Positions 4,374 to 33,014 of a DNA stretch of 64,000 nucleotides are shown here, piece after piece. Source of the DNA: Helicobacteraceae bacterium (lineage in GTDB: Bacteria; Campylobacterota; Campylobacteria; Campylobacterales; SZUA-545); assembly GCA_031258155.1 (NCBI GenBank), contig JAIRNH010000003.1, forward strand, positions 1 to 64,000, in the 5' to 3' direction. Numbering within the stretch: the first letter of the stretch is position 1; the number at the start of each line of letters is the position of its first letter. The position numbers were made by a program, and so were the translations under genes. The notes beneath the pieces were generated by a model. The model was given only the letters and a program-made list of their open reading frames with translations. It searched no databases and was not told the DNA's origin.

Positions 4374-5813
4374 ATGAGTTTTTCGGTTAAGGCGGAGGAT
4401 TTCGCCAAATTTCAGAACGTCGTAAAAGAGAGCAAGATCGAGTTTGTCGATTTTCGCTTCACCGATATTAAGGGCGTGTGGCACCATGTCTCTTTCACGA
4501 GCAAATCGATCACGAAAGAAACCTTTGAAAACGGGCTTCCGTTTGACGGCAGCTCGATTCCCAATTGGCAACCGATCAACCGATCGGATATGTTGCTAGT
4601 TCCCGACGCGGCGACGGTTTTTGTCGATCCGTTTACCGCCGATCCGACCGCCGTCGTTATCTGCGACGTGTGGGATATTTACAAAAATCAACCATACGAA
4701 CACGATCCGCGCTCCATCGCAAAAAAGGCGCTGGCGTATCTCAAATCCACCGGCATAGGCGACGCGGCGTATTTCGGTCCCGAAAACGAGTTTTTCGTGT
4801 TTGACGAGTTGTTTATCCGCGACGATTCCAACTGTCAGTATTACGAGCTAGACAGCGAGGAGGGCAACTGGAACAGCGCCAAGAAGTTCGACGATCGCCC
4901 AAATACAGGTCATCGCCCCGCCGTCAAAGGCGGCTATTTCCCCGTTCAGCCCGTCGATAGCATGGTCGATCTGCGCGCCGAAATGGTCAAAACGCTTGAA
5001 AGCGTAGGGCTTGAAATCAATATCAACCACCACGAGGTCGCGGTCGCGCAGGGCGAGATCGGCGTGAAATTCGCCTCGATCGTAGAGGCGGCGGACAACG
5101 TGCAAAAGCTGAAATACGTCGTCAAAAACGTAGCGCACCTAAACGGCAAAACGGCTACTTTTATGCCCAAGCCGCTTTACGGCGACAACGGCAACGGCAT
5201 GCACTGCCATCAATCAATCTGGAAGAACGGCAAAAACGTTTTCGCGGGCGATAAGTATCAGCAACTTAGCGACGAGGCGCTTAACTACATCGGCGGCGTT
5301 TTGAAGCACGCGCAGTCGATCGCGGCGTTTTCCAACGCCTCCACCAACAGCTACAAACGGCTAATTCCGGGCTTCGAGGCGCCGAGCATTCTCACCTATT
5401 CGGCGCAAAACCGCTCCGCCTCCTGCCGCATTCCATACGTAAGCGGCGCTAGCGCTAAACGCGCGGAGTTTCGTTTCCCCGATAGCTCCGCAAACCCGTA
5501 TCTAGCCTTTGCCGCGATGTTGCTTGCGGGTATCGACGGCATTAAGAACAAAACCAACCCGGGCGAGCCTATGGAGATGGACCTTTTCGAGCTTTCGCTG
5601 GACGAAATTCGCGAAAAGGGCATTCAGCAAATGCCGCACACCCTGCGCGAGGCGATCGAGTGCATGCTCGCCGATCGCGGCTACCTGAAAGAGGGCGGCG
5701 TATTTACCGAAGAGTTTATCCAAAACTATCAGCACTACAAGTTCCAGTCCGAAATTTGGCCGTGGGAGGCAAGACCTCACCCATACGAGTTTAAGACGAC
5801 TTACTCGTGCTAA
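4374..5813 (+). CDS. glnA: Glutamine synthetase type I
   Basis: 479 residues from the ATG at 4374, which has a GGAGG ribosome site at 4361-4365; an upstream in-frame ATG at 4326 lacks one. Glutamine synthetase landmarks are all present: [18 protein letters not shown], the [10 protein letters not shown] loop, RIPYVSG and [13 protein letters not shown]. It condenses ammonia and glutamate to glutamine with ATP in a cytoplasmic dodecamer. At the position of the adenylylated tyrosine (NLYDLP in E. coli) this protein has DLFELS, so the tyrosine is replaced by phenylalanine and GlnE-type adenylylation is not possible. A lack of adenylylation is known for the Helicobacter pylori enzyme. The gene follows the phosphatase gene after 67 bases. 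Confidence 0.96.
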
Positions 5814-18423: not shown

Positions 18424-18460
18424 TTAATTCTTGAGTAACTTTATCTACAAAGGTGAAATT

Positions 18461-19738
18461 ATGAGCGAAAGCTGGAGACCGGAGACCGCCGCCATTCACG
18501 CGGCATACGACAACAAGAGCGGCGAGGGGACGATGGCGGTGCCAATCTACCAAACCACCGCATACGAGTTTGGCAGCGCGGAAACGGCGGCAAACCGCTT
18601 CGCGCTGAAGGAGCTTGGCAATATCTACACGCGGCTAAACAACCCGACCGTCGGCGTTTTGGAGGGGCGTTTTGCCGAAGTGGAGGGCGGCGCGGCGGCG
18701 CTCGCTACATCTAGCGGCGCGGCGGCGGTTTTCTATTCGATTGCCAATCTAGCCGCTTCGGGCGAAAATATCTTGCTTGCCAACAAGATTTACGGCGGCA
18801 CGCTTAGCTTGACGCAATACACGATCAAACGTTTTGGGATTGAAACGCGCATATTCGATCCGCAAAAACCGGAGACGATCGAGCCGCTTATCGACGATAA
18901 AACGCGGGCGATTATCTTTGAGTCCATCAGCAACCCCTCGATTGATATAGCCGACGTCGAGCCGATCGTCGCGATCGCCAAAAAGCATAAGATCGCCACG
19001 ATCGTCGATAACACCGTCGGCACGCCCTATCTGTTCCGCCCGTTTGATTGGGACGTTGACGTAAGCGTCCATAGCCTTAGCAAATATACGAGCGGGCAAG
19101 GGCTTGGCATAGGCGGCATTATCGTAGAGCGCAAAGGGTTAAACGAGCTTTTAATCGGCAATCCGCGCTACAAGCACTTTAACGAGCCTGATTATAGTTA
19201 CCACGGGCTAGTTTATGCCCAGTTACCGTTTCCGCTTTTTACGCTTAGGGCGCGGCTTAGTTTGGCGCGGGATATTGGCGCGATCGCTCAGCCGTTCGCA
19301 GCGTGGCTATTTTTGCAGGGGCTAGAGACGCTTAATTTGCGGATTAAGCGCCACAGCGAAAGCGCGCTTACCGTCGCCAAATGGCTAAAAACGCACAAAA
19401 AGGTTCAGTCGGTTAATTACCCGCTGTTAGAGGGCGACAAAAACTACGCTTACGCCAAAAAATACCTTACGGGTTACGCGAGCGGACTGCTTAGCTTTGA
19501 GGTGGGCGATCTGGAGTTTGCTAAGCATATCCTTAATACGACGAAAATCTTCAGCCGCGTCGTTAATATCGGCGATAGTAAGTCGATCATCACGCACAGC
19601 GCCAGCACGACGCACCAGCAACTGACCGAACGGGAGCAAGCCGATTGCGGAATCACCCCGGGACTTGTGCGGTTGTCGATCGGTTTGGAAGCGCCGGAAG
19701 ACCTGATTGCGGATTTGGAGCGGGCGCTTAACGTCTAA
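18461..19738 (+). CDS. metY: O-acetylhomoserine sulfhydrylase
   Basis: 425 residues from the ATG at 18461, which is preceded by AAAGGTG; an in-frame TTG at 18431 has no ribosome site. PLP-dependent Cys/Met metabolism family: YQTTAYEFGS, TRLNNPTVGVLE, ATSSGAAAVFYS, and the PLP lysine in VHSLSKYTSGQG (about residue 206). Length and the GxGIGGIIVE stretch fit O-acetylhomoserine sulfhydrylase, which makes homocysteine from O-acetylhomoserine and sulfide. It stands next to, and converges on, the radical-SAM/ssu sulfur region, so it is the likely point where released sulfide is fixed. Confidence 0.92.
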   Translation: MSESWRPETAAIHAAYDNKSGEGTMAVPIYQTTAYEFGSAETAANRFALKELGNIYTRLNNPTVGVLEGRFAEVEGGAAALATSSGAAAVFYSIANLAASGENILLANKIYGGTLSLTQYTIKRFGIETRIFDPQKPETIEPLIDDKTRAIIFESISNPSIDIADVEPIVAIAKKHKIATIVDNTVGTPYLFRPFDWDVDVSVHSLSKYTSGQGLGIGGIIVERKGLNELLIGNPRYKHFNEPDYSYHGLVYAQLPFPLFTLRARLSLARDIGAIAQPFAAWLFLQGLETLNLRIKRHSESALTVAKWLKTHKKVQSVNYPLLEGDKNYAYAKKYLTGYASGLLSFEVGDLEFAKHILNTTKIFSRVVNIGDSKSIITHSASTTHQQLTEREQADCGITPGLVRLSIGLEAPEDLIADLERALNV

Positions 19739-19772: not shown

Positions 19773-20093
19773 AAATTAGGCTTACCCGCGTTAGGGTAAA
19801 GAGTCGTTAAAAACGCCCCGCCAATTTGTATGGCGAAAATATAATTATCTCAATTATCAATTTGATGTTCATTAGCTTTAGAATTAAGCCGCCCGTTGGC
19901 TAACGGCTTGCGCGAGGAAAATTACCGCGCAATCAACTATCTTAGTTAAGAAACGGCGCAAAGCGCCGCCTCTGCGGTAAGCGACAATGACCGCTCGCGC
20001 AAAAGCGTCAAACGACGACGAGCGTGATTGAACGGCTTCGCCGGCACGGCAAAGCGTCAAACGGCGCTAACGCTCCCCGTGCGTAGAGCAACT

Positions 20094-20191
20094 GCCGCGT
20101 CTGCGCGCGTCGGTTTTCAACGCCACAAAGCGCGGAAAGTTCGGATATTTCGCCGCTTAAACGACAATTCGCGTTTTTTTTTGGCGCTCAT
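20094..20191 (-). pseudogene. Remnant of a third tandem radical-SAM gene (N-terminal ~30 codons)
   Basis: This stretch copies the start of the neighbouring gene at 20201-21460, including the sequence before its ATG. It has an A9 run instead of A6 after the start, a seven-base deletion, and has lost the AGG of the ribosome site. The reading frame breaks after about ten codons and the similarity stops at 20094. It shows that a third copy of the gene once followed in the same tandem array. Confidence 0.8.
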
Positions 20192-20200
20192 ATGTTCTGC

Positions 20201-21460
20201 TTAAAATACGCGGGCGAGATCGGTGTCGGGGTGGTTGCCGCACCTGCGGTAGTCGTCAAAATCGATCAGCAGGTTATGCCGCCGCCGAATCTCCTGCAAA
20301 CCTTGCGCTAAGCGGACGTAATACTCCAGCGATCCGCTTGTCTGATTATGGCGGGCGCCAAGTTCGCTGCCCGGTCGCGGTTGCCAGACCGTAAAGATCA
20401 CGCTAACGCCGTGCCGCGCGAAATCTTCCGCTTCGTTCAGGACAAGGTTTAGCCCCTCTTCCTCGCTTTTTACGCCGTGCGGACGCGCAAGCTCCACGCC
20501 AGCCACAAAACCCGTATTGACGCGGTTTTCGCCAAACACCTCCACCGCGTCGAAAAGCCGCTTTTTCCACTCCTTGTAGCCCACCCACTTTGCCTTGCCC
20601 GGGCAGTATTGGTTAAACAGCTCTTCGCTTAACGCCTCGATATTGCAAGTGAGGCTAGATACGCCCGTGTTGTCGTATAGCGTCTTTAACTGCTCTTTAG
20701 TAAGCGCCGAGCAGATCAGCTGCGAAGGAAACTTGGGCGTATTAAAGTTTTCGCCGATCGCTTGCAATACCTCTATATAAAACCGCGCCTCCCTATCAAA
20801 CGGCTTTTCGCCGTGAAAATCGCTGCCGCTAGAGAGGCAGATCGCCGTATATCTGCCTTTTTCTTTTAGCGCCTCGCCGATTGTTTCGCGCACGTCGTCG
20901 ATCTTCACGCGCGTTTGCATTGCTATCTCTTCGCGTTGCGCCTTGAGGTGATTTACTATGTCGCAAAACTTACACCCGCCGCCGCCCTCGTTCGCCGTCC
21001 AGAAATGGCAATAGCGATTTGGAATCACGTAAAGGCGCTGAGGGCGCGCGCTGATCACGTTTTGCATAATCGCGCCGCTTTTGGCGCGTTTGTCGTAATA
21101 GTCGGGTTTCTCCCAGTAAAAAACCTCTTCGATCGGCTCGCCGTTATCGGTTATAAAGAGCCGTCCGTCGATCAGATCGACCACATACGGGTTGTTTTCG
21201 ATCGGCGTGGGCAGTCCGATAATCGACGTGCCGTCTCGCATAACGAGCGCCTCGGGGCGTTTGTCGATTCTGCCGTCCCTAGAACCAAAAAGGTGCGTGC
21301 CGAAGTTTTGATGTTTCGCGGGATCAAACGCCGAAAGCGCGCCGCTCGTATATGCCACGCCGCGTCTGTGCGCGTCGGTTTTCAGCGCCACAAAGCGCGG
21401 AAAATTCGGATATTTCGCCGCGACTTCGTTAAACGACAATTCGCGTTTTTTGGCGCTCAT
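20201..21460 (-). CDS. Atypical radical-SAM protein, second tandem copy
   Basis: 419 residues. The iron-sulfur site is read as CHFWTANEGGGGCKFC (Cys151, Cys163, Cys166), that is C-x11-C-x2-C, with a glycine run before the CxxC. This differs from the canonical CxxxCxxC of radical-SAM enzymes, but the following features (ICLSSGSD as the GGE-like strand, the later beta-alpha units SLTCNIEAL and VNTGFVAGVEL) fit a radical-SAM TIM barrel. The first 150 residues form a separate domain with DGR/DGT turns. Substrate unknown. It starts nine bases after the stop of the paralogue at 21470-22717 with an AGGAGAA ribosome site. The last 44 residues are identical in both copies. Confidence 0.7.
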   Translation of the reverse strand: MSAKKRELSFNEVAAKYPNFPRFVALKTDAHRRGVAYTSGALSAFDPAKHQNFGTHLFGSRDGRIDKRPEALVMRDGTSIIGLPTPIENNPYVVDLIDGRLFITDNGEPIEEVFYWEKPDYYDKRAKSGAIMQNVISARPQRLYVIPNRYCHFWTANEGGGGCKFCDIVNHLKAQREEIAMQTRVKIDDVRETIGEALKEKGRYTAICLSSGSDFHGEKPFDREARFYIEVLQAIGENFNTPKFPSQLICSALTKEQLKTLYDNTGVSSLTCNIEALSEELFNQYCPGKAKWVGYKEWKKRLFDAVEVFGENRVNTGFVAGVELARPHGVKSEEEGLNLVLNEAEDFARHGVSVIFTVWQPRPGSELGARHNQTSGSLEYYVRLAQGLQEIRRRHNLLIDFDDYRRCGNHPDTDLARVF

Positions 21461-21469
21461 ACGTTCTCC

Positions 21470-22717
21470 TTAAAATACGCGAGCAAGATCGGTGTCGGGG
21501 TGGTTGCCGCACCTACGGTAGTCGTCAAAATCGATCAACAGATTATGCCGCCGCCGAATCTCCTGCAAACCTTGCGCTAAGCGGACGTAATACTCCAGCG
21601 ATCCGTTGCGGCGCCCCGCGAACGCCGATCCCTGATTGGGATTCCATACGCAGTGAATAGCGCTCACGCCATGCGCCGCTAGATCGTCCGCTTCGCTTAG
21701 ATACCGCTCCAACGCCTCGTCCTCGCTCCTGAAGCGCGTAGGCTCGGCAAGCTCCACGCCGCCCACCGTTCCCGTATTGACGCGATTTTCGCCAAACACC
21801 TCTACCGCGTCGAATAGTCGGCGCTTCATCTCCTTATAGCCGATCCATTTGGCTTTGCCCGGACACACGCGGTTAAACTGCTCCTCGTCTAGCGTCTCTA
21901 TATCCATAGTAACGCTGGATACGGGCGTGTTGTCGTAAATGCGTTGAAGCTGATCTTTTTTCATCGCCGTGCAGATTAGTTGAATGGGGATTTTAGGCGC
22001 GCTAAAACTTTCGCCCACCGCCCGCAAAGCCTCGATATAGTAATCCGCCTCGCTATCGAACGGGGTCTCGCCGCGAATGTCGCTGCCGCCGGTAACGCAG
22101 ATCGCCGTATATCGCCCGCGCTCTTTTAGCGCTTCGTTTAACGTCTCCCTTATGTCCGTTAAATCGAGCTTGGTCGGCATAGCGACCTCGTTTTTCGCCT
22201 GCTTTAAGTTGCTCACTATATCGCAGAACTTACACCCGCCGCCGCCCTCGTCGCTCCAGAACCAGCAGTAACGATACGGCGAGAGCGACAGCCGTTGAGG
22301 GCGCGCGCTGATCACGTTTTGCATAGCGATCCCGCCGCTTGTTTTTTTGTCGTAGTAATCTGGCTTCTCCCAATAAAAGACCTCTTCGATCGGCTTGCCC
22401 TGATCGGCGACGTATAGCTTGCCGTCGATCGCGTCTATTATGTATGGGTTTTGCTCGATAGGCGCGGTGGTAACGACCAGCGACGTTCCGTCGCGTAGCC
22501 ACATACCTTCGGGTCGTCCCGTGATTTTGCCGTCGCGGTTGCCGAAAATATGCGTGCCTCCGCCTTGATGAACGGCGGGATCGAACAGCTCCAACGCCGC
22601 GTCGGAATATAGCACGCCGCGCCGCTGAATATCGATTTTCAGCAGCGGCAGACGGGGGAAATCGGGATATTTCGCCGCTACCTCGTCAAAGGTTAGCTCG
22701 CTTCGTTGAACGCTCAT
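21470..22717 (-). CDS. Atypical radical-SAM protein, first tandem copy
   Basis: 415 residues, about two thirds identical by eye to the next gene. Its cysteine site is CWFWSDEGGGGCKFC (Cys151, Cys162, Cys165; C-x10-C-x2-C). The barrel motifs CVTGGSD (near residue 204, a GGxx SAM-amine motif), SVTMDIETL and VNTGTVGGVEL are recognisable. A conserved block FYWEKPDYYDKK precedes the cluster. The start overlaps the stop of the FMN-binding protein gene by four bases (ATGA), so the two are translationally coupled and likely work together. I place it in the radical-SAM superfamily with moderate confidence; the reaction is unknown, though the sulfur-related neighbourhood suggests C-S or thiol chemistry. 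Confidence 0.7.
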   Translation of the reverse strand: MSVQRSELTFDEVAAKYPDFPRLPLLKIDIQRRGVLYSDAALELFDPAVHQGGGTHIFGNRDGKITGRPEGMWLRDGTSLVVTTAPIEQNPYIIDAIDGKLYVADQGKPIEEVFYWEKPDYYDKKTSGGIAMQNVISARPQRLSLSPYRYCWFWSDEGGGGCKFCDIVSNLKQAKNEVAMPTKLDLTDIRETLNEALKERGRYTAICVTGGSDIRGETPFDSEADYYIEALRAVGESFSAPKIPIQLICTAMKKDQLQRIYDNTPVSSVTMDIETLDEEQFNRVCPGKAKWIGYKEMKRRLFDAVEVFGENRVNTGTVGGVELAEPTRFRSEDEALERYLSEADDLAAHGVSAIHCVWNPNQGSAFAGRRNGSLEYYVRLAQGLQEIRRRHNLLIDFDDYRRCGNHPDTDLARVF

Positions 22718-23202
22718 AGATTATCCTTTTTAGCAAGCTGATCTAGATGGACAAAATACGGGCGCGCCGCCTGTTCCTCGGCGATTCGCGTAGAGGGCGT
22801 TTCGTCCTTGACGCTAACGATCTCATAGCGCCACACGCCCGCGATTGCGCGTCCGCCGTAGCGCTCTTGCGCCGCTTCGTAGGCGCGGGTAAACTCCTTG
22901 CCCGAAACAATGTTGCGCGAGGCTTTGACGGAGAACTGATAGGTCTTTTTATCGGGCGTAATTAGCAAAATCGCGATCGGCTTGTCAAACCAGATCGCGC
23001 GGGTTAAATTGCGGTTGGTTTCGGAGCTTTCCAAAATCTCCCACGATTCGATCAGTTCGCCGCTCCAACGTAGCGATCCCTTACATACCGAATGCGGCGC
23101 GCCGTTTTCGTCCAGCGTCGTGAGGACTTTGATCGCCCCCTCCTCGTTAAAACGCGACAACGCCTCTTGTAAAAGCGCGTCGTTACTTTTCGCACGGCTC
23201 AT
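22714..23202 (-). CDS. FMN-binding split-barrel protein (pyridoxamine-phosphate-oxidase-like)
   Basis: 162 residues. LTTLDENGAPHSVCKGSLR resembles the opening strands of the PNPOx/flavin-reductase split barrel (normally TxxxDGxPhxxxh), followed by an ETNRNLTRAIWFDKPIAILL stretch that resembles the dimer interface and FMN phosphate region, and YQFSVKASRNIVSGKEF. Such proteins bind FMN, F420 or haem and often donate electrons. First gene of the radical-SAM operon with translational coupling, so a reductase or electron-donor role is a reasonable inference. The start has no strong ribosome site (AAGAAAAAAA before ATG). Confidence 0.65.
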   Translation of the reverse strand: MSRAKSNDALLQEALSRFNEEGAIKVLTTLDENGAPHSVCKGSLRWSGELIESWEILESSETNRNLTRAIWFDKPIAILLITPDKKTYQFSVKASRNIVSGKEFTRAYEAAQERYGGRAIAGVWRYEIVSVKDETPSTRIAEEQAARPYFVHLDQLAKKDNL

Positions 23203-24476: not shown

Positions 24477-25244
24477 TTAGATCGCATAACTAAACGGCGC
24501 GTCGAGATCGCCGAAAAACGCTTTGTAGATCGCCGATTTTTGCCGCGCGAATTCGGCGCTAACGCGGTTGCGCGGCGAGCTAAGCTCTATGCGGTGAATC
24601 GCCTCGATCCCGCCCTTGCCCATCACCACCACGCGCTCTCCTAGATAGACCGCCTCGTCTATATCGTGCGTTACTAGGATCATCGTGATCTTTTCGGCGC
24701 TCCATATACGCAAAATCTCCTCTTGCAGGCGGATTTTGGTGATCGCGTCAAGCGCGCCTAGCGGCTCGTCGAGCAGTAGCAGTTTCGGGCTGTTGGCGAG
24801 CGCTCTAGCGATCGCCGCTCTTTGCGACATGCCGCCGCTTAGCTCGCGCGGATAGCGTCGCTCGGCGCCGCTTAGTCCTACTAGCGCCAGCTTTTCTCGC
24901 GCGATCTCGTTTGCGTTTGGCGTATCGGGCGGCAAGCTGAACTTGATATTGTCGATCACGTTCAGCCACGGCAACAGGCGGTGATCTTGAAAGATAAAGC
25001 CGCGCTCGCGGCTTGGTTTGCCCACCGGTTTGCCCTCGAAGATCGCCTCGCCGCCGCTTGCCGTCTCCAACCCGCCGATAATCCTAAGAAGCGTCGATTT
25101 GCCGCAACCGCTCGCGCCTATGATCGATACGAACTCCCCGCGATCGACGCTCAAGCTGACCTTGTCCAGAACGCGGTTTTCCGCGCCCTTTTTTGAAAAC
25201 GTCTTGCTTAGATCGCGAATTTGCAAAATCAGTTCTACTGCCAC
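24477..25244 (-). CDS. ssuB: Sulfonate-type ABC transporter ATP-binding protein
   Basis: 255 residues from the GTG at 25244, which overlaps the permease stop by ten bases; the frame is open further upstream but that part is the permease gene read in another frame. ABC motifs: Walker A GASGCGKST, Q-loop FIFQDHRLLPW, signature LSGGMSQRAAIARA, Walker B LLLLDEPLGALD and switch His in VTHDIDEAVY. This RLLPW variant is typical of the SsuB/TauB nitrate-sulfonate-taurine group. It energises import. Last gene of the operon. Confidence 0.9.
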   Translation of the reverse strand: MAVELILQIRDLSKTFSKKGAENRVLDKVSLSVDRGEFVSIIGASGCGKSTLLRIIGGLETASGGEAIFEGKPVGKPSRERGFIFQDHRLLPWLNVIDNIKFSLPPDTPNANEIAREKLALVGLSGAERRYPRELSGGMSQRAAIARALANSPKLLLLDEPLGALDAITKIRLQEEILRIWSAEKITMILVTHDIDEAVYLGERVVVMGKGGIEAIHRIELSSPRNRVSAEFARQKSAIYKAFFGDLDAPFSYAI

Positions 25245-25987
25245 CTGATCGCCTTTTTGGTGATCTTGCGAAGCAGATCGTCTAGCAGTTTGCCGATCAC
25301 GCCGATAATCAGCATTCCCAAGATCACCATATCGGGGCGAGCGAGCGATCGCCCGTCCATCAGCATATAGCCGATCCCCGCTTGAGCGGCGATCAGCTCG
25401 GCGGCTACGACGCATATCCACGCCATGCTAAGCCCCAAACGAATGCCCGCCATAATAAACGGCAGCGCGCCCGGCAAGATCACGCGGGCGATCACGCGCC
25501 GACGCGAGGTTTCATAGACTTTGGCAAGCTCCAGAAATTTTGGATCGATGTTTTTGATCCCCTCCACCGTGTTTATTAGGATAGGAAAAAACGCGCCGAT
25601 CGCGATAATGTAGATTTTCGATCCCTCGCCTATGCCAAACCACAAAATCGCCAGCGGTATCCACGCGATCGGCGGGATCGGCTGGATTACCTGCAAGATT
25701 CCTTCCGTTAGCCGCTCCGCCGCGCGCGATAGCCCGATTACGATTCCAAGCGTTAAAGCGAGAACCAGCGCGATCGCAAAGCCTTCCAAGACGCGGATTA
25801 TGCTTGCCTTCGTGTGTTGCCAGAGCGTCCCGTCCTCGACGAACTCTACGCCCGTAGCCACCACGTCTTCGGGCGGCGGCATTGTGTAGGGCTGAATCCA
25901 ACCCGCCAAATCAGCTCCCTTCCATACCGCGATCAGCGCCAGAGGCAAAATTAGATATTGCGCTACCAAACCAGCCCGTCGCAACAT
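25235..25987 (-). CDS. ssuC: Sulfonate-type ABC transporter permease
   Basis: 250 residues with six predicted helices. PPPEDVV near residue 38 after the first helix, LGIVIGLSRAAERL, the EAA-loop region GIKNIDPKFLELAKVYETSRRRVIARVILPGALP (quoted in part by position, about residues 146-178), and GIRLGLSMAWICVVAAE place it in the SsuC/TauC family of BPD transporter permeases. It forms the membrane channel. It overlaps ssuB and follows the third binding-protein gene by three bases. Confidence 0.9.
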   Translation of the reverse strand: MLRRAGLVAQYLILPLALIAVWKGADLAGWIQPYTMPPPEDVVATGVEFVEDGTLWQHTKASIIRVLEGFAIALVLALTLGIVIGLSRAAERLTEGILQVIQPIPPIAWIPLAILWFGIGEGSKIYIIAIGAFFPILINTVEGIKNIDPKFLELAKVYETSRRRVIARVILPGALPFIMAGIRLGLSMAWICVVAAELIAAQAGIGYMLMDGRSLARPDMVILGMLIIGVIGKLLDDLLRKITKKAIRWQ

Positions 25988-25990
25988 AAT

Positions 25991-26947
25991 CTAAATCCCC
26001 GCCAGATCGATATATTTCTCGCTGACAAACGCGTCAATATCCACGTTTTTGCGAATAATTTTCTCTTTTAGCAGATAGTTTGCGACGTCGGCGATCTCTT
26101 TTAGATCGCGCGGCGTAAATTTGATGTGAAAATCCATTCGCGCAAGCGACGCGGCGGTTACGTCAAGAGGCAGCTTGTATGCGGGCGCGAGTAGTTTTGC
26201 CGCCTCTTTTGTGCGGTTGCTTACATATTTCGCGCCGCGATCAAGAGCGCGGATATACGCCGCCAAAACCTCAGGGTGTTTCTCGGCGTAACCGCTTCTC
26301 GCGTAGGCGATAATGTTGCCCTGTTTTATCCCCTCGCCGTCGGCTACCACCCGCGCTTTACCGGAGAGCGTAAGCAGACTGATGTAATGCTCCCAAGTCA
26401 TCGCGCCGTCGATCTGCTTGTTTTCCAGCGCGATCGGAATCTCGTTCGCGCCTAGATTGATATGCTCGAACTCCTCGCTTTTCACATTGTGCTTCTCTTG
26501 CAAAAGCGCGAGCAAGTGTTGCACGTAGGTTCCCTTGCCGTAGGCGATCTTTTTGCCTCTTATGTCCTCGAACCTCTTGATTGGCGAGTCGATCGGCGCG
26601 ACCAGCGCCATCGCCTTTTCGCCCGCGGCGATATTGGCGAACGCCACTATGTCAAGCCCCACAGATCGCGCGATAATCGCGGGCTGATCGCCCAAAATCG
26701 CCGCGTCTATATCGCCGCTTCGCGCCGCCTCGTTGATCAGCGGACCGTTTTCAAAGACGTTCCACGTATAGGTCGCGCCGACTTTGTTTAGCTCCTCGTC
26801 CAGATACCCCAGCTCCTTCGCCGCCCAGAGCGGCGCGTGAAGCGGGTATGGCGTGGTGGCGATCCGTAGCGTCGGCTTATCCGCGCCAGATAGATCGCAC
26901 GCCAGTAGCGCGATCGCGGCGAGCGCCGCAATGCCAAAGCGCCTCAT
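25991..26947 (-). CDS. ssuA: Sulfonate-type ABC substrate-binding lipoprotein, third copy
   Basis: 318 residues. The signal ends in a lipobox ALLAC followed by Asp (ALLAC-DLSG), so it is probably a lipoprotein; Asp after the Cys keeps lipoproteins in the inner membrane in E. coli. The mature part has the SsuA/NMT1-like fold: LRIATTPYPLHAPLWAAKEL, NGPLINEA, DAAILGDQPAIIARSVGLD, and GKKIAYGKGTYVQHLL. It catches sulfonate-like ligands for the permease. Its first 30 residues are nearly identical to the second copy in DNA too, which suggests recent duplication or conversion. The start overlaps the previous gene by four bases (ATGA). Confidence 0.88.
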   Translation of the reverse strand: MRRFGIAALAAIALLACDLSGADKPTLRIATTPYPLHAPLWAAKELGYLDEELNKVGATYTWNVFENGPLINEAARSGDIDAAILGDQPAIIARSVGLDIVAFANIAAGEKAMALVAPIDSPIKRFEDIRGKKIAYGKGTYVQHLLALLQEKHNVKSEEFEHINLGANEIPIALENKQIDGAMTWEHYISLLTLSGKARVVADGEGIKQGNIIAYARSGYAEKHPEVLAAYIRALDRGAKYVSNRTKEAAKLLAPAYKLPLDVTAASLARMDFHIKFTPRDLKEIADVANYLLKEKIIRKNVDIDAFVSEKYIDLAGI

Positions 26948-27900
26948 ATCCCCGCCCTTTCGATATATTCGGCGGTAATGAACTTGTCGATATCCACGTC
27001 GTTTCGGATCAGTCGCTCTTTAAGCAAGTAATCTTTAACCGATCGGATTTCGGCTATGTCGCGCTCGTTGAATTTCGTGTATAGCTTTTGGTTGCCGAAT
27101 ACCTTGATAAACGTGTCGCGATCGAGCCTGAAAATCGGCGAGAGTAGCTTATACGCCGCCTCTTTATCGCCCTCGATCCGCTTCGCGCCGCGATCAATCG
27201 CTCTAATATACGCCGCGACGACTTCGGGGTGTTTTTCGGCGAACGATCGCGTTACATAGCTTACTCGGTTGGTCAGCTTCAGTCCAACGCCGTCGGCGAT
27301 TAGCCGCGCCCTGCCTTCCGCGATCAGCTTGGTTAAGGTGTGATCCCATGTCAGCGCGCCGTCCACGTCGCCGCGATCGAGCGCGGCGCCAATATCCTCC
27401 GCGCCTAGATTGACGTGATCTATGTCGCTTTTACCTAATCCGTTTGCCTTGAGCAGCAGATCGAGCAGGTGATGCACCGTCGATCCCTTGCCGTAGGCGA
27501 TCTTTTTGCCTTTTATATCTTTAACGGATTTGATCGGCGAATTTGGCGGAACAATCAACCCAATCGTGCGCTCGCCCGATCCCAAATTGGAGATCGCGAT
27601 TATGTCCAGCCCCGCCGATCGAGCGGTGATCGCGGGCTGATCGCCTGAAACGCCCAAATCCGCGCTGCCTCCGCTTAGCGCTTCATTTACCAGCGGTCCC
27701 GCCGCAAACTCGTTCCACGTATATGCCGCGCCGACTTTCTTAAACTCCTCGTCAAAGTAGCCTAGCTCCTTTGCCGCCCAGAGCGAGGCGTAGGCGGGCG
27801 TTCTTTGCGCGGCGATCCGTAGCGTCGGCTTATCCGCGCCAGATAGATCGCACGCCAGTAGCGCGATCGCGGCGAGCGCCGTAAAACCAAAGCGTCTCAT
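26944..27900 (-). CDS. ssuA: Sulfonate-type ABC substrate-binding lipoprotein, second copy
   Basis: 318 residues, with the same lipobox ALLAC-DLSG. It differs from the other two at the presumed ligand positions: SGDQPAITARSAGLD, GERTIGLIVPPNSP and YGKGSTVHHLLDLLL instead of KGTYxQHLLALL, and ALTWDHTLTKLIAEG instead of WEQYISLL. These changes fit a different ligand range. It overlaps its neighbours on both sides by four bases. Exact substrate unknown. Confidence 0.88.
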   Translation of the reverse strand: MRRFGFTALAAIALLACDLSGADKPTLRIAAQRTPAYASLWAAKELGYFDEEFKKVGAAYTWNEFAAGPLVNEALSGGSADLGVSGDQPAITARSAGLDIIAISNLGSGERTIGLIVPPNSPIKSVKDIKGKKIAYGKGSTVHHLLDLLLKANGLGKSDIDHVNLGAEDIGAALDRGDVDGALTWDHTLTKLIAEGRARLIADGVGLKLTNRVSYVTRSFAEKHPEVVAAYIRAIDRGAKRIEGDKEAAYKLLSPIFRLDRDTFIKVFGNQKLYTKFNERDIAEIRSVKDYLLKERLIRNDVDIDKFITAEYIERAGI

Positions 27901-28853
27901 ATCCCAGCCGCTTCGATATATTTTGTCGTTACGAACTCTTTTATATTTACGTCTTTTTTGATGATCCCCTCTTTAAGCACGTAGTTTTTGACCGTCTCGA
28001 TCTCTTTAACGTCGCGCGGCAGGAATTTGGCGTAATACTCAAAGTGCGAAAAGACCTTTTCTAATACTTCGGGCGTAACTTTGAAGGTCGGCGAGAGCAG
28101 TTTTGCCGCCGCTTTGTTGTCTTTGTTGATGTATTGCGAGCCGCGTTCGATCGCTTTGATATACGCCGCTAAAACTTCGGGGTGTTTAGCCGCGAAGTCT
28201 CGCTTGATATAGGAGATGTTGTTGCCGAGTTTAATCCCCGTTCCGTCGGCTACCACGCGCGCCTGACCCGACTCGACTAGCAGGCTAATATACTGCTCCC
28301 AGATCACCGCGCCGTCGATCTGCCCCGTTATGATCGCGGTTGGAATATCGCCGGCGGCTAGATTGATATGCTCAAAATCGCCGTTTTTCAGCCCCGCGTT
28401 ATTGACCAGTAACGCCAGCAGGTGTTGCGCGTATGTGCCTTTGCCGTAGGCGATCTTTTTGCCTTTGACGTCCTTTACCTCTTTTATGGGCGAATCGATA
28501 GGGACGATCAGCGCCAAAGCCTTTTCGCCGATTCCGAAATTGGCGAATATCACGATGTCCAGCCCGACCGATTTGGCGATGATCGCGGGCAAGTCCGCCA
28601 TCATTCCTAGATCAATGCTACCGCCGCGCACCCCTTCATTGACCAGCGGTCCGTTGCCGAAAACGTTCCACGTATAGGTCGCGCCTATCTTCTTGAACTC
28701 CTCGTCCAAATACCCCAGCTCTTTCGCCGCCCAGATCGGCGCGTAAAGCGGGTATGGTTGAGCGCCGATTCTTAACTCCGCTTTGGAGCCGTGATCGTGA
28801 TCGGCGAAAACAAAACTCGTCATAGCTAAAAACGCAAAAAACAGTTTTTTCAT
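27897..28853 (-). CDS. ssuA: Sulfonate-type ABC substrate-binding protein, first copy
   Basis: 318 residues from the ATG at 28853 (AAGGAA ribosome site just after the ssuD stop); a longer frame to 28877 would run into ssuD. The signal peptide (KKLFFAFLAMTSFVFA) is cleaved by signal peptidase I rather than II, followed by a His-rich start DHDHGSK. The rest follows the family: LRIGAQPYPLYAPIWAAKEL, NGPLVNEG, DLPAIIAKSVGLD and GKKIAYGKGTYAQHLLALL. It is closer to the third copy than to the second in the ligand region. A free periplasmic protein plus two tethered ones for one permease is unusual. Confidence 0.88.
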   Translation of the reverse strand: MKKLFFAFLAMTSFVFADHDHGSKAELRIGAQPYPLYAPIWAAKELGYLDEEFKKIGATYTWNVFGNGPLVNEGVRGGSIDLGMMADLPAIIAKSVGLDIVIFANFGIGEKALALIVPIDSPIKEVKDVKGKKIAYGKGTYAQHLLALLVNNAGLKNGDFEHINLAAGDIPTAIITGQIDGAVIWEQYISLLVESGQARVVADGTGIKLGNNISYIKRDFAAKHPEVLAAYIKAIERGSQYINKDNKAAAKLLSPTFKVTPEVLEKVFSHFEYYAKFLPRDVKEIETVKNYVLKEGIIKKDVNIKEFVTTKYIEAAGI

Positions 28854-28866
28854 CGTTGTTCCTTTC

Positions 28867-30003
28867 CTAGTTTGCAAAATGCTGATTTAGCAAGTTGGTA
28901 TCAAACGCGCCGCCCGTTACCGTGTCGCTAACCGTAATGGGTTTTTTGCCGTCGAGTAGCGGAAACACAAGCTCGGCGAAGCGCACCGCCTCTTCGAGGT
29001 GAGGATAGCCCGATAGCACAAAGGTATCCGCTCCTAGCGCCTCGTATTCTTTAAGCCGTTCGGCGACTGTTTTGGGATCGCCCACAAGCGCCGTTCCCGC
29101 GCCGCCGCGAATAAGCCCTATGCCCGCCCAGAGATTGGGCGCGACCGTCAGCTTGCTTCTGTCGCCTTTGTGCAGATCGGTGATTCTATGCTGTCCTACG
29201 GAATCGGAGACGTTCTGAATATGCTGCGCCTTTTGGATAATCTCGTCGTCTAGTTTGCTGATGAGTTTATCGGCGGCTTCCCAAGCCTCTTTTTCCGTTT
29301 CGCGGACGATTACTTGCAGGCGAATGCCGATTCGCACCTCTCTGCCGAGTTTCTTAGCGCGGGCTTTTACGTCCTTGATCTTTTCGGCGACCTGCTCTAG
29401 CGGTTCGCCCCAACTTAGGTAAGCGTCGATATGCTTTGCCGTAAGATCGTGCGCCGCGTCGGAGGAGCCTCCGAAATAGAGCGGCGGGCGCGGTTTTTGC
29501 GGTCCCCAGAAAAGATTTATCGCGTCTTTAACGCGGTAATATTTGCCGTTGTGCGTTACCTTGTCGCCGCCAAGTATCTTTTTCCAGATCGTAAGAAACT
29601 CGTCGGCTTGCTCGTAGCGCTCGTCGTGGCTTAAAAACACGCCGTCGGCTTCAAGCTCCTCAGGCCAAGCGCCCGGCACCACGTTTAGGATCAGCCGTCC
29701 GTCTAACGCCTCGTCTAGCGTCGTGGTTTTTCGCGCGAAAACGGTCGGCGAGCCTTCCGCCGAAGTGCGAAGCGCGACAAGCAGTTTGATCTTGCTTGTA
29801 ACGTTAGCCAGCGTCGCCGCCGTAAGAAACGGGTCGAAATTGCCGCTACCCGTCGGGATAAGCAACCCGTCGTAACCTAGCGTTTCGGCGGTCGTAGCGA
29901 TCTGCCTAAGGTATTTGTTGGTAACGGGGCGAGCGTATTCGCTCTTGCCAAGATAGCGGCTATCGCCGCCTGTCGGTAGAAACCAGAAAATTTCGGAAGC
30001 CAT
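28867..30003 (-). CDS. ssuD: FMNH2-dependent alkanesulfonate monooxygenase
   Basis: 378 residues, aligning along its length with E. coli SsuD: FWFLPTGGDSRYLG, GYDGLLIPTG, LVALRTSAEGSPTVFARK, the active-site pattern SERY-like SHDERYEQ, YFGGSSDAAHDL, IGIRLQVIVRETEKEAW, VGQHRITDLHKGD (with the loop Arg) and AGIGLIRGGAGTALVGDP, then VLSGYPHLEEA. It cleaves the C-S bond of alkanesulfonates using FMNH2 and oxygen, giving aldehyde and sulfite. No ssuE flavin reductase is next to it; the split-barrel protein 5.7 kb downstream is a possible reductase. First gene of the operon with GGAG before the ATG. Confidence 0.93.
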   Translation of the reverse strand: MASEIFWFLPTGGDSRYLGKSEYARPVTNKYLRQIATTAETLGYDGLLIPTGSGNFDPFLTAATLANVTSKIKLLVALRTSAEGSPTVFARKTTTLDEALDGRLILNVVPGAWPEELEADGVFLSHDERYEQADEFLTIWKKILGGDKVTHNGKYYRVKDAINLFWGPQKPRPPLYFGGSSDAAHDLTAKHIDAYLSWGEPLEQVAEKIKDVKARAKKLGREVRIGIRLQVIVRETEKEAWEAADKLISKLDDEIIQKAQHIQNVSDSVGQHRITDLHKGDRSKLTVAPNLWAGIGLIRGGAGTALVGDPKTVAERLKEYEALGADTFVLSGYPHLEEAVRFAELVFPLLDGKKPITVSDTVTGGAFDTNLLNQHFAN

Positions 30004-30944: not shown

Positions 30945-31793
30945 TTACTCGACGTTAAAAACTCTCGCGGCGTTGTTAAACAGTAGCTTTTCCAGAACCG
31001 TCTCGTCGAAACCAAAGGCTAAAAAGTCCTCGATCGACTGCTTGATCGGGCGAAACGGATAGGAGCTGCCGAATAAAAACTGATCTTGCAGAAAGGTTTT
31101 CGCGGCGTTAATCAGCGCTTCGCCGCCCGCGATAAATCCGTACATATCGGGGACGGGAAAGATATTTTCGTAGCGAAACGCCGCGCCTACTAATCCGGCG
31201 GTATTGGGATAATAGCCGTGATAGACCGCGATCGGAAGCGTTGGAAAGTTTGCGGCGACGAGGCTCAAACGCGCGGGATCGTTGAAAGTTAGATCGGGCG
31301 TGGTGGGACCGCTCATCAGCGTTAGCGGAATTTTTCGTTTGGACAAATGTTCGTAGATAGGGAAGTAAAGCCTATCGTCGGGGTGGCGCGGCGGCGAGGC
31401 AAAGCCCGGCTCGATATTGATCGCCTTTAGTTTCAGCGTATCGATCGCGTAATCGATCTGTTTTATCGTTTCGTCGGCGCCGTCAAGCGCGGGATCAATC
31501 CCGCCAACGCCTAGAAGTTCCTTGTGCGGCGTTACGATACGGCTTAAAAAAGCGTTGTCGATCCGCTGCGCGGGCGTTCTGCGCCCTACGACGATCGCGT
31601 AGGTCAGCCCAGCCGATCGCGCCTCGTTTAGAAAGCCCTCTTGCGTGCGCGATTTGACAAAATGCGCCGCGTCTCCTCGCGTCCCTACGCGCCTGTTTAA
31701 CCATTTGGCGGTCTCAAACTCGATTGTGTCGTCTTGCGCCCCAAAAAACGGGTGCAAAAACGCGGGGCGGCAACGCGCGTCGATAATTTTCAT
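30945..31793 (-). CDS. Amidohydrolase-2-like TIM-barrel protein lacking usual metal ligands
   Basis: 282 residues with a good ribosome site (AAGGAGAG). IIDARCRPAFLHP opens strand one, where amidohydrolases have HxH; here it is ARCRP. LLGVGGIDP, INIEPGFASPPRHPDD, LPIAVYHGYYP and FLFGSSYPFRP follow the order of the amidohydrolase_2 family, but the final metal-binding Asp (normally FGSDYP) is Ser. So it has the fold with an altered or absent metal site. DARxRP variants are known in family members of unknown function. It sits upstream of the sulfonate genes on the same strand and could act on a sulfonate breakdown product; this is inference. Confidence 0.68.
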   Translation of the reverse strand: MKIIDARCRPAFLHPFFGAQDDTIEFETAKWLNRRVGTRGDAAHFVKSRTQEGFLNEARSAGLTYAIVVGRRTPAQRIDNAFLSRIVTPHKELLGVGGIDPALDGADETIKQIDYAIDTLKLKAINIEPGFASPPRHPDDRLYFPIYEHLSKRKIPLTLMSGPTTPDLTFNDPARLSLVAANFPTLPIAVYHGYYPNTAGLVGAAFRYENIFPVPDMYGFIAGGEALINAAKTFLQDQFLFGSSYPFRPIKQSIEDFLAFGFDETVLEKLLFNNAARVFNVE

Positions 31794-31917: not shown

Positions 31918-32490
31918 CTAGTCGCCGATATAGTCGCATGGGTTGGGATACTCTTTATATGGAAAAAACTTGCCGCTTAGCGCTTGGTTATACTCCCAAT
32001 ACGCCTTCTTTCGCTCTTTAGTGTTAAACGCGGCGATCTGAAGAAAAGCGTCGTCTTCTTCTTTAGCCAAATATTTGTTTATATCCTTTCGGTCATCGCC
32101 TATATACGTTTTTCTTTCACAACTAACGACGCGATCAATCGTTTCGCTTACTTGCATGATAGCCGTATCGTCTTTTGAGGCTCCGGCTAAGATAGCGGCT
32201 TGATACGCCTTTGCCGATTGAATTAAACTTTGGCGCTCTTTAAGCTGTTCTGGTTTTGGTTTGTATTCGTAGATGGCGATCTCGATATCGTCCCTAACGC
32301 CGTTATTGTTGCTATCGATCCCTTCTAGCGTAGCTTTGCCCGCCTCGCCCGGATCGGGAGGCAGATTGTATCTTTTTAGCGAAGATGAATTGCAACCGCT
32401 AATAATTAACGCCGCCAGAGCGACAAGAGCGGTAATCGGCGGTTTTGCTATATTGTTCAAAGCGCGACTTAGTCGCCGATATAGTCGCAT
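31918..32490 (-). CDS. Tandem lipoprotein with Ca-binding-like motif, second copy
   Basis: 190 residues. A lipoprotein signal (ITALVALAALIISGC) is followed by a short linker and LPPDPGEAGKATLEGIDSN. The motif DSNNNGVRDDIE is a DxNxNGxxDDxE calcium-binding loop as in dockerin/thrombospondin type 3 repeats. The C-terminus contains two Cys (VVSCERKTYIGDD and PNPCDYIGD) that could pair. It is about 85 percent identical by eye to the upstream gene. The start is uncertain: the ATG at 32490 lies in the end of the upstream gene in another frame, and a TTG at 32460 is possible. Function unknown. Confidence 0.7.
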   Translation of the reverse strand: MRLYRRLSRALNNIAKPPITALVALAALIISGCNSSSLKRYNLPPDPGEAGKATLEGIDSNNNGVRDDIEIAIYEYKPKPEQLKERQSLIQSAKAYQAAILAGASKDDTAIMQVSETIDRVVSCERKTYIGDDRKDINKYLAKEEDDAFLQIAAFNTKERKKAYWEYNQALSGKFFPYKEYPNPCDYIGD

Positions 32491-33014
32491 GGGTTGTCGC
32501 CATCGTAGAGCGATAGTATTCTCCCGCTTAGCGCTTGGTTATACTCCCAATACGCCTTCTTTCGCTCTTTAGTGTTAAACGCGGCGATCTGAAGAAAAGC
32601 GGAGTCTTCTTCCATAGCCAAACGTTTGTTTATGTCCTTGCGATCGTCGCCTATATAGGTTTCTCTTTTGCAACTAATAATGCGCATAGTCGCTTTGCTT
32701 GCTTGCGTTATCGCCGCTTCGTCTTTCGAGTCTCCCGCTAAGATAGCGGCTTGATACGCCTTTGCCGACTGAATTAAACTTTGGCGCTCTTTAAGCTGCT
32801 CCGGCTTTGGTTTGTATTCGTAGATGGCGATCTCGATATCGTCTCTTATGCCGTTATTATTGCTATCGATCCCTTCTAGCGTAGCTTTGCCCGCCTCGCT
32901 AGGATCGGGAGGCGGGACATACTTCTTGGGTGAATCAGAACCGCCGCCGCTATCGCCGCAACCGATAATTAGCGCCGATAAAGCGGCTATGGTTAAACTC
33001 TTGAGCGTTTTCAT
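32469..33014 (-). CDS. Tandem lipoprotein with Ca-binding-like motif, first copy
   Basis: 181 residues. Signal SLTIAALSALIIGC is a clean lipobox, then a glycine-serine linker (GDSGGGSDS). DSNNNGIRDDIE, EYKPKPEQLKERQSLIQSAK and FNTKERKKAYWEYNQALSG are shared with the second copy. It starts directly after the stop of the hydrolase-like gene (33017), so the three genes are likely one transcript. The family is not one I recognise; a surface or periplasmic role with calcium is a guess from the motif. Confidence 0.75.
   Translation of the reverse strand: MKTLKSLTIAALSALIIGCGDSGGGSDSPKKYVPPPDPSEAGKATLEGIDSNNNGIRDDIEIAIYEYKPKPEQLKERQSLIQSAKAYQAAILAGDSKDEAAITQASKATMRIISCKRETYIGDDRKDINKRLAMEEDSAFLQIAAFNTKERKKAYWEYNQALSGRILSLYDGDNPCDYIGD

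Follow-up and report, generated by a model that had tools for sequence, protein, structure and literature searches.

In the window analysed here, a 64,000-nucleotide stretch of a Helicobacteraceae bacterium (GenBank assembly GCA_031258155.1, contig JAIRNH010000003.1, positions 1 to 64,000 of the forward strand), a gene for a predicted split-barrel protein is followed by two genes for variant radical S-adenosylmethionine (SAM) proteins of 415 and 419 residues (Table 1). An ssu operon (24477-30003) encoding SsuB, SsuC, three SsuA-like proteins and SsuD lies upstream of them on the same strand. We describe these genes as a candidate oxygen-independent sulfonate system based on a family of radical-SAM proteins that is uncharacterised.

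The last letters of the split-barrel gene are CTATGA, and the TGA stop shares bases with the start codon (ATG) of the 415-residue gene; this ATGA overlap had been pointed out in a preliminary description of the locus and is found in the sequence. Only 9 bases separate the 415-residue gene from the 419-residue gene downstream. The preliminary description had set the extent of the group at 20094-23202, between metY and ssu. The upper end stands, but the last open reading frame stops at 20201, and 20094-20200 lies inside a decayed third copy. Both metY and ssu do flank the group, metY being convergent and outside the operon.

Table 1. Features of the radical-SAM/ssu locus in the window
Feature	Position	Strand	Evidence
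MetY, O-acetylhomoserine sulfhydrylase, convergent with radical-SAM genes	18431..19738	+	TIGR01326, 527 bits against 495
Decayed 5' remnant of third tandem radical-SAM copy	20069..20200	-	Direct repeats D2, D4, D5
Variant radical-SAM protein, paralogue 2, 419 residues, C-x11-C-x2-C	20201..21460	-	NF045502, 158 bits, cut-off 125
Variant radical-SAM protein, paralogue 1, 415 residues, C-x10-C-x2-C	21470..22717	-	NF045502, 161 bits; AlphaFold; Foldseek
Predicted split-barrel partner (flavin mononucleotide type), 162 residues, translationally coupled (ATGA)	22714..23202	-	Weak PNPOx_N match; predicted fold; co-occurrence with radical-SAM gene
SsuB-like ABC ATPase, longest reading frame; true start probably near 25240	24477..25421	-	Sequence; clustering with Ssu operons
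SsuC-like permease	25235..25987	-	
SsuA-like binding protein, first of three in tandem	25991-26947	-	Similarity
SsuA-like binding protein, second of three	26944-27900	-	Similarity
SsuA-like binding protein, third of three	27897-28877	-	TIGR01728 SsuA_fam, 172 bits against 163.5 (passes)
SsuD, reduced-flavin-dependent (FMNH2) alkanesulfonate monooxygenase	28867..30003	-	TIGR03565, 525 bits, cut-off 518

The two radical-SAM proteins are 66% identical, and each is under purifying selection when compared with its ortholog in a relative, the ratio of nonsynonymous to synonymous substitution rates (dN/dS) being about 0.09-0.10. Given these values and the recurrence of the genes in several phyla, the set does not consist of chance reading frames. 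The protein ends encoded by the final 135 bases of the paralogues in the window are 98% identical, against 62% for the remainder. Two sister genomes show the same 98% identity at the C-terminal ends, a pattern suggestive of repeated gene conversion; the converted end perhaps contacts a partner that both proteins share. The paralogues also have decayed relatives. Direct repeats pair 20069-20156 with 21334-21421 at 83% and 20177-20336 with 21446-21605 at 96%, and a C-terminal scrap of a further copy lies on contig C1 of the host (4716-4832). The decayed copies (window 20069-20200 and C1:4716-4832) thus add to a tandem array whose C-terminal ends are concerted. A third full copy is found on contig C36 of the host, also adjoining Ssu-type genes.

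Family, cysteine site and predicted folds

Both radical-SAM proteins score above the curated 125-bit cut-off of NCBIfam NF045502 ('variant_rSAM'), a radical-SAM protein family without assigned function (158.2 and 161.1 bits). They lie far below the core member tested (locus L015, 431 bits), and together with their relatives they form a separate clade marked by a C-terminal RRCGNHPD motif. The core shares with them a C-x8-C-x2-C type site and the CPGK motif; what sets the window clade apart is that a split-barrel protein and an Ssu importer accompany it. The cut-off of the MSMEG_0568 family (TIGR04043, 303.7 bits), of which we take NitD to be a member, is not reached (52.7 and 60.8 bits), and MSMEG_0568, CofH and HmdB are weak relatives. 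Searches of Pfam, NCBIfam and PDB sequences returned no named function and no solved relative for the radical-SAM proteins, nor was a characterised homologue of the clade with a non-sulfur role found.

The preliminary description had drawn attention to cysteine sites of the form C-x10-C-x2-C and C-x11-C-x2-C, with a GGGG run before the CxxC, and these are plainly seen in the reading frames and motifs. The atypical spacing holds, but it is not a novelty of this pair: across the family set the site reads C-x8..11-C-x2-C, with x8 most frequent, and it belongs to a family already named, while GGGG is a lineage feature present in only some members. Of the run, only G161 before the second cysteine is invariant in the core alignment; C285 of CPGK and C403 of RRCGNH are invariant there too. 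The canonical CxxxCxxC is not present and PF04055 (Pfam) is unmatched. Other genuine radical-SAM enzymes deviate as well.

An AlphaFold model of the 415-residue paralogue built from 26 sequences has a mean predicted local distance difference test score (pLDDT) of 86 and a predicted template modelling score (pTM) of 0.88. Its top Foldseek matches are RlmN, NosL, LipA, MoaA and Cfr (E 1.9e-6 to 1e-3, probability 1.00), with template modelling (TM) scores that are moderate, about 0.4 by query and up to 0.63 by target, and all 30 PDB matches at E <0.001 are radical-SAM enzymes or their complexes (RlmN, NosL, LipA, Cfr, MoaA, Elp3). Structure prediction had been proposed in the preliminary description as a check on the assignment, and it returned a radical-SAM barrel. 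The window proteins are thus predicted to have the radical-SAM partial (beta/alpha) barrel with a conserved three-cysteine site.

The model of the 162-residue partner (pLDDT 83) matches HupZ, HutZ, the flavin mononucleotide (FMN)-binding protein 3in6 and F420 reductases, at E down to 1.7e-7, and on the strength of these matches we call it a predicted split-barrel protein of the FMN, heme or F420 type. The FMN split barrel of the preliminary description therefore survives as a predicted fold but falls short of the PNPOx_N (Pfam) cut-off (E=0.008, 17 bits against 28.1); the protein would bind FMN, or possibly heme or F420.

Neighbourhood and distribution

We tallied the neighbours of 43 family copies at surveyed loci within a distance limit of 8 kb. 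An Ssu-type ATP-binding cassette (ABC) transporter gene is present in 38/43, and the linkage to sulfonate transport genes that was noted at first for this locus is therefore conserved across phyla. A split-barrel gene accompanies 37/43 copies; for 32 of these it is on the same strand and no more than 500 bases away. Of the five copies that lack an Ssu gene, four come from contigs that are short or truncated, and the remaining one (L092) is divergent. Divergent members outside the clade (L049, L050, L051, L092) have no Ssu genes nearby. Sulfonate genes are missing around the divergent NF045502-type proteins examined on Streptomyces and Agrobacterium plasmids, used here as a control, and the plasmid search gave no match to the split barrel. 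Among 60 genomes around the host, 8 encode both proteins, 1 the radical-SAM protein only and 1 a weak split-barrel match only, while 50 encode neither. The pair is patchy in distribution, given that a member of the host genus that is 98% complete lacks both. We conclude that the radical-SAM gene and the split-barrel gene form a real unit, with the Ssu importer beside it.

Other neighbours recur less often, among them metK (7 copies), metY (6/43, a weaker linkage than first described) and nitrogenase-like HDK genes (three loci). A metK gene adjoining the radical-SAM genes fits an enzyme that consumes one SAM per turnover. A SAM riboswitch was considered as a shared control element and rejected, as the loci scanned yielded a single one, near metY in L077. 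In the window an amidohydrolase gene (30945-31793) is of a kind that recurs near Ssu/radical-SAM loci of Helicobacteraceae and Campylobacteraceae, and two small, closely similar lipoprotein-like genes stand in tandem at 31918-33014.

By record titles, a scan for the family reached Helicobacteraceae, Campylobacteraceae, Spirochaetes, Accumulibacter, Clostridiales, Lachnospiraceae, Synergistaceae and a deltaproteobacterium, the closest named relatives being Helicobacteraceae metagenome-assembled genomes (MAGs). The family is rare in evenly drawn phylum samples, in which counts include the seed genomes: 5/399 in the phylum of the Lachnospiraceae MAG, 3/151 in that of the Synergistaceae MAG, 2/247 in that of the Spirochaetaceae MAG, 5/297 in that of the deltaproteobacterial MAG and 1/399 in that of the Accumulibacter MAG. 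The family tree intermixes phyla, as horizontal transfer would, with several deep branches that are long and unsure.

SsuD (TIGR03565) was found in 9/10 Campylobacterota carriers, the exception being a genome that is 75% complete, and in 0/19 carriers outside Campylobacterota. This bears on the possibility that the split barrel acts as a flavin reductase for SsuD, in place of SsuE, with the radical-SAM protein as an accessory to the same pathway. Such an arrangement would account for the position of SsuD, immediately upstream of the split-barrel gene in Campylobacteraceae loci, and for our failure to recognise SsuE beside SsuD. If SsuD were required, however, its absence from all 19 genomes would not be expected, and we rejected this role, which we regard as highly improbable, because both genes persist there without detected SsuD.

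The binding proteins also speak to what is imported. We tested eight of them from loci outside Campylobacterota, and every one scores above the SsuA_fam (TIGR01728) cut-off, one (L083) being closest to TauA. The cargo might instead be thiamin or another precursor, a heme product or a nitrile, which the pair would process as HutW and HutZ do heme. Our reasoning for taking this seriously is that HupZ and HutZ are among the partner's best structural matches, that HutW is a radical-SAM enzyme opening heme anaerobically (PMC10035031), a radical-SAM enzyme and a split-barrel protein sharing one pathway there, as proposed here, and that NitD, a distant sequence relative with a variant cysteine site, belongs to the cyanide-assimilation cluster nit1C (PMC10433974), a nitrile/cyanide context. 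We nevertheless consider a non-sulfonate cargo improbable: the SsuA_fam cut-off is passed at all loci tested, the recurrent neighbours are metY, metK and ssuD, with a suyAB-like pair once, and heme-uptake genes were not recognised at the loci. The HutW/HutZ/HupZ context is heme, whereas the window partner is coupled to sulfonate importers.

Proposed role in sulfonate-sulfur assimilation

Given this linkage, the pair very probably has a role in sulfonate-sulfur assimilation. We favor the possibility, with a probability of about 0.5, that the split barrel and the variant radical-SAM protein constitute an oxygen-independent enzyme system that takes sulfur from SsuABC-imported sulfonates or their close organosulfur relatives. 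Almost as plausible is that the radical-SAM protein itself cleaves the C-S bond. More tentatively, it could be a direct desulfonase that makes and uses the 5'-deoxyadenosyl radical within its active site and acts jointly with the split-barrel flavoprotein, an anaerobic counterpart of SsuD served by the same importer.

In a working model, SsuABC would import the sulfonate, the radical-SAM protein would spend one SAM per turnover to form a 5'-deoxyadenosyl radical, and this radical would abstract a hydrogen atom from the imported sulfonate; elimination would then break the C-S bond and free sulfite, with the split-barrel flavoprotein giving or taking the single electrons needed. We propose hydrogen abstraction and sulfite elimination by analogy with the glycyl-radical enzyme IslA. 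Sulfite would be reduced to sulfide via CysI and the sulfide fixed by MetY; the host has CysH-, CysD-, CysN- and CysI-type genes on contig C66 in addition to MetY. The C66 genes belong to an assimilatory sulfate reduction cluster (C66:60485-68209), which also contains ThiF/JAB genes and whose sulfite reductase has a TusA domain at its C terminus. This host might use SsuD with oxygen and the radical-SAM pair without it. The three tandem SsuA-like proteins (25991-28877) suggest a range of sulfonates and, together with the two paralogues, more than one substrate. The oxygen-free route beside SsuD put forward in the preliminary description is strengthened by the carriers without SsuD, while C-S opening and the compound concerned stay conjectural, and its interpretation is thus partly supported.

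Several loci hold a second candidate C-S enzyme: (i) in L078 (10106-11582) a SAF-domain and altronate-dehydratase-type pair, laid out like the sulfolactate lyase SuyAB, lies between the radical-SAM gene and SsuACB; (ii) in L079 (4260-7485) a fusion of a BadF-type activator with an HgdB/double-cubane-type reductase, together with a second HGD-D gene, sits inside the Ssu/radical-SAM operon; and (iii) NifH-like genes stand beside SsuA/B/C-type importers in L015 (222-6177), L024 (4-3214), L091 (2364-7150) and L082 (8674-10430), where the first three also have NifD/K-like genes, all but L024 have a radical-SAM gene of the NF045502 core, and L015 has a nucleosidase. These four loci represent an uncharacterised nitrogenase-like system in a sulfonate context, possibly distinct from Isr and Mar. 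In addition, a B12-binding BchE-like radical-SAM protein adjoins the variant radical-SAM operon in L080 (12135-13499, beside metK) and L093 (10377-11738).

Such neighbours (L078; L015, L024 and L091; L079) would be expected if the pair only tailored the imported sulfonate, for example by oxidising, rearranging or dehydrating it, and sulfite release fell to a distinct lyase or reductase, such as SuyAB, Xsc or a nitrogenase-like enzyme resembling Isr. We think this unlikely, as these neighbours vary by locus whereas transporter, radical-SAM gene and split barrel are constant, and apart from SsuD no further C-S enzyme lies at the window locus. It is quite unlikely that the radical-SAM protein is a maturase building or modifying a cofactor or protein (a nitrogenase-like cluster, a flavin or a peptide) for another sulfur enzyme. 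The sister group in NF045502 does sit with NifHDK-like genes (in L015, with a nucleosidase alongside), and the prenyl-FMN maturase PhdC is a split-barrel protein too, but no third protein is constant enough to be the target, the window locus has no nitrogenase-like genes, and tandem copies beside binding proteins (two here, three in L077) resemble substrate diversification. A nitrogenase-like partner elsewhere in the host was also considered and rejected: of its four PF00148 genes, the pair on C26 is NifDK-like and the second pair, on C5, tested as NifEN. With these two pairs the host is probably a diazotroph.

Set against the oxygen-independent system we favor are the following points: (i) the radical-SAM fold, three-cysteine site, split-barrel partner, gene coupling and SsuA-family linkage in several phyla, including in genomes without detected SsuD, are computed results, while the radical mechanism and the substrate are proposed; (ii) SsuA-family proteins are not strictly sulfonate-specific; (iii) the split-barrel assignment is weak at the sequence level and FMN binding is deduced; (iv) the host copy on C36 and some Campylobacteraceae copies have no adjoining split-barrel gene; (v) SsuD absence comes partly from incomplete MAGs, several of the 19 among them; (vi) the genome-wide search of carriers was aimed at SsuD and not at other oxygen-independent desulfonating enzymes; and (vii) with other candidate C-S enzymes at some loci, the role of the pair might be to prepare a substrate or to mature a partner.

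Comparison with known systems and significance

There is precedent for radical chemistry in anaerobic sulfonate use. IslA, a glycyl-radical isethionate sulfite-lyase, cleaves the C-S bond and releases sulfite (PMC6386719, PMC8473560), and the system proposed here would share with IslAB SAM-started radical chemistry, the breaking of a sulfonate C-S bond and oxygen-free sulfite release. IslA differs in being a glycyl-radical enzyme that needs activation by IslB; at the surveyed loci we recognised no enzyme of this class, a genome-wide search not having been made. In Rhodobacter capsulatus, IsrBHDK carries out anaerobic isethionate assimilation with a radical-SAM protein, IsrB, that is reported to be closest to BciD (PMC11423573), whereas the weak relatives of the window family are MSMEG_0568, CofH and HmdB. 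Oxygen-independent use of sulfonate sulfur (as proposed here), a radical-SAM protein and an Ssu-type importer are common to both, but IsrBHDK requires the nitrogenase-like HDK proteins (nflHDK), and none is encoded beside the radical-SAM genes at the window locus. MarB is NifB-like (PMC12552129), and we do not equate IsrB and MarB, the published descriptions being BciD-like for the one and NifB-like for the other. With SsuD/SsuE the pair would share the importer, flavin involvement and probably the end product, sulfite; SsuD requires oxygen, whereas pairs of the window type occur in genomes without detected SsuD. In the open-access literature we found no function for the family, no paper on the gene pair and nothing on MSMEG_0568 together with radical SAM; subscription papers lay outside this scope and prior work is possible.

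Sulfonates are a large organic sulfur pool of guts, soils and seas, and the published oxygen-independent routes (Xsc, IslAB, SuyAB, IsrBHDK) may not explain every anaerobe that uses sulfonate sulfur. The module described here is a small two-gene candidate, spread over several phyla, that can be expressed and tested, and it offers a first functional context for NF045502.

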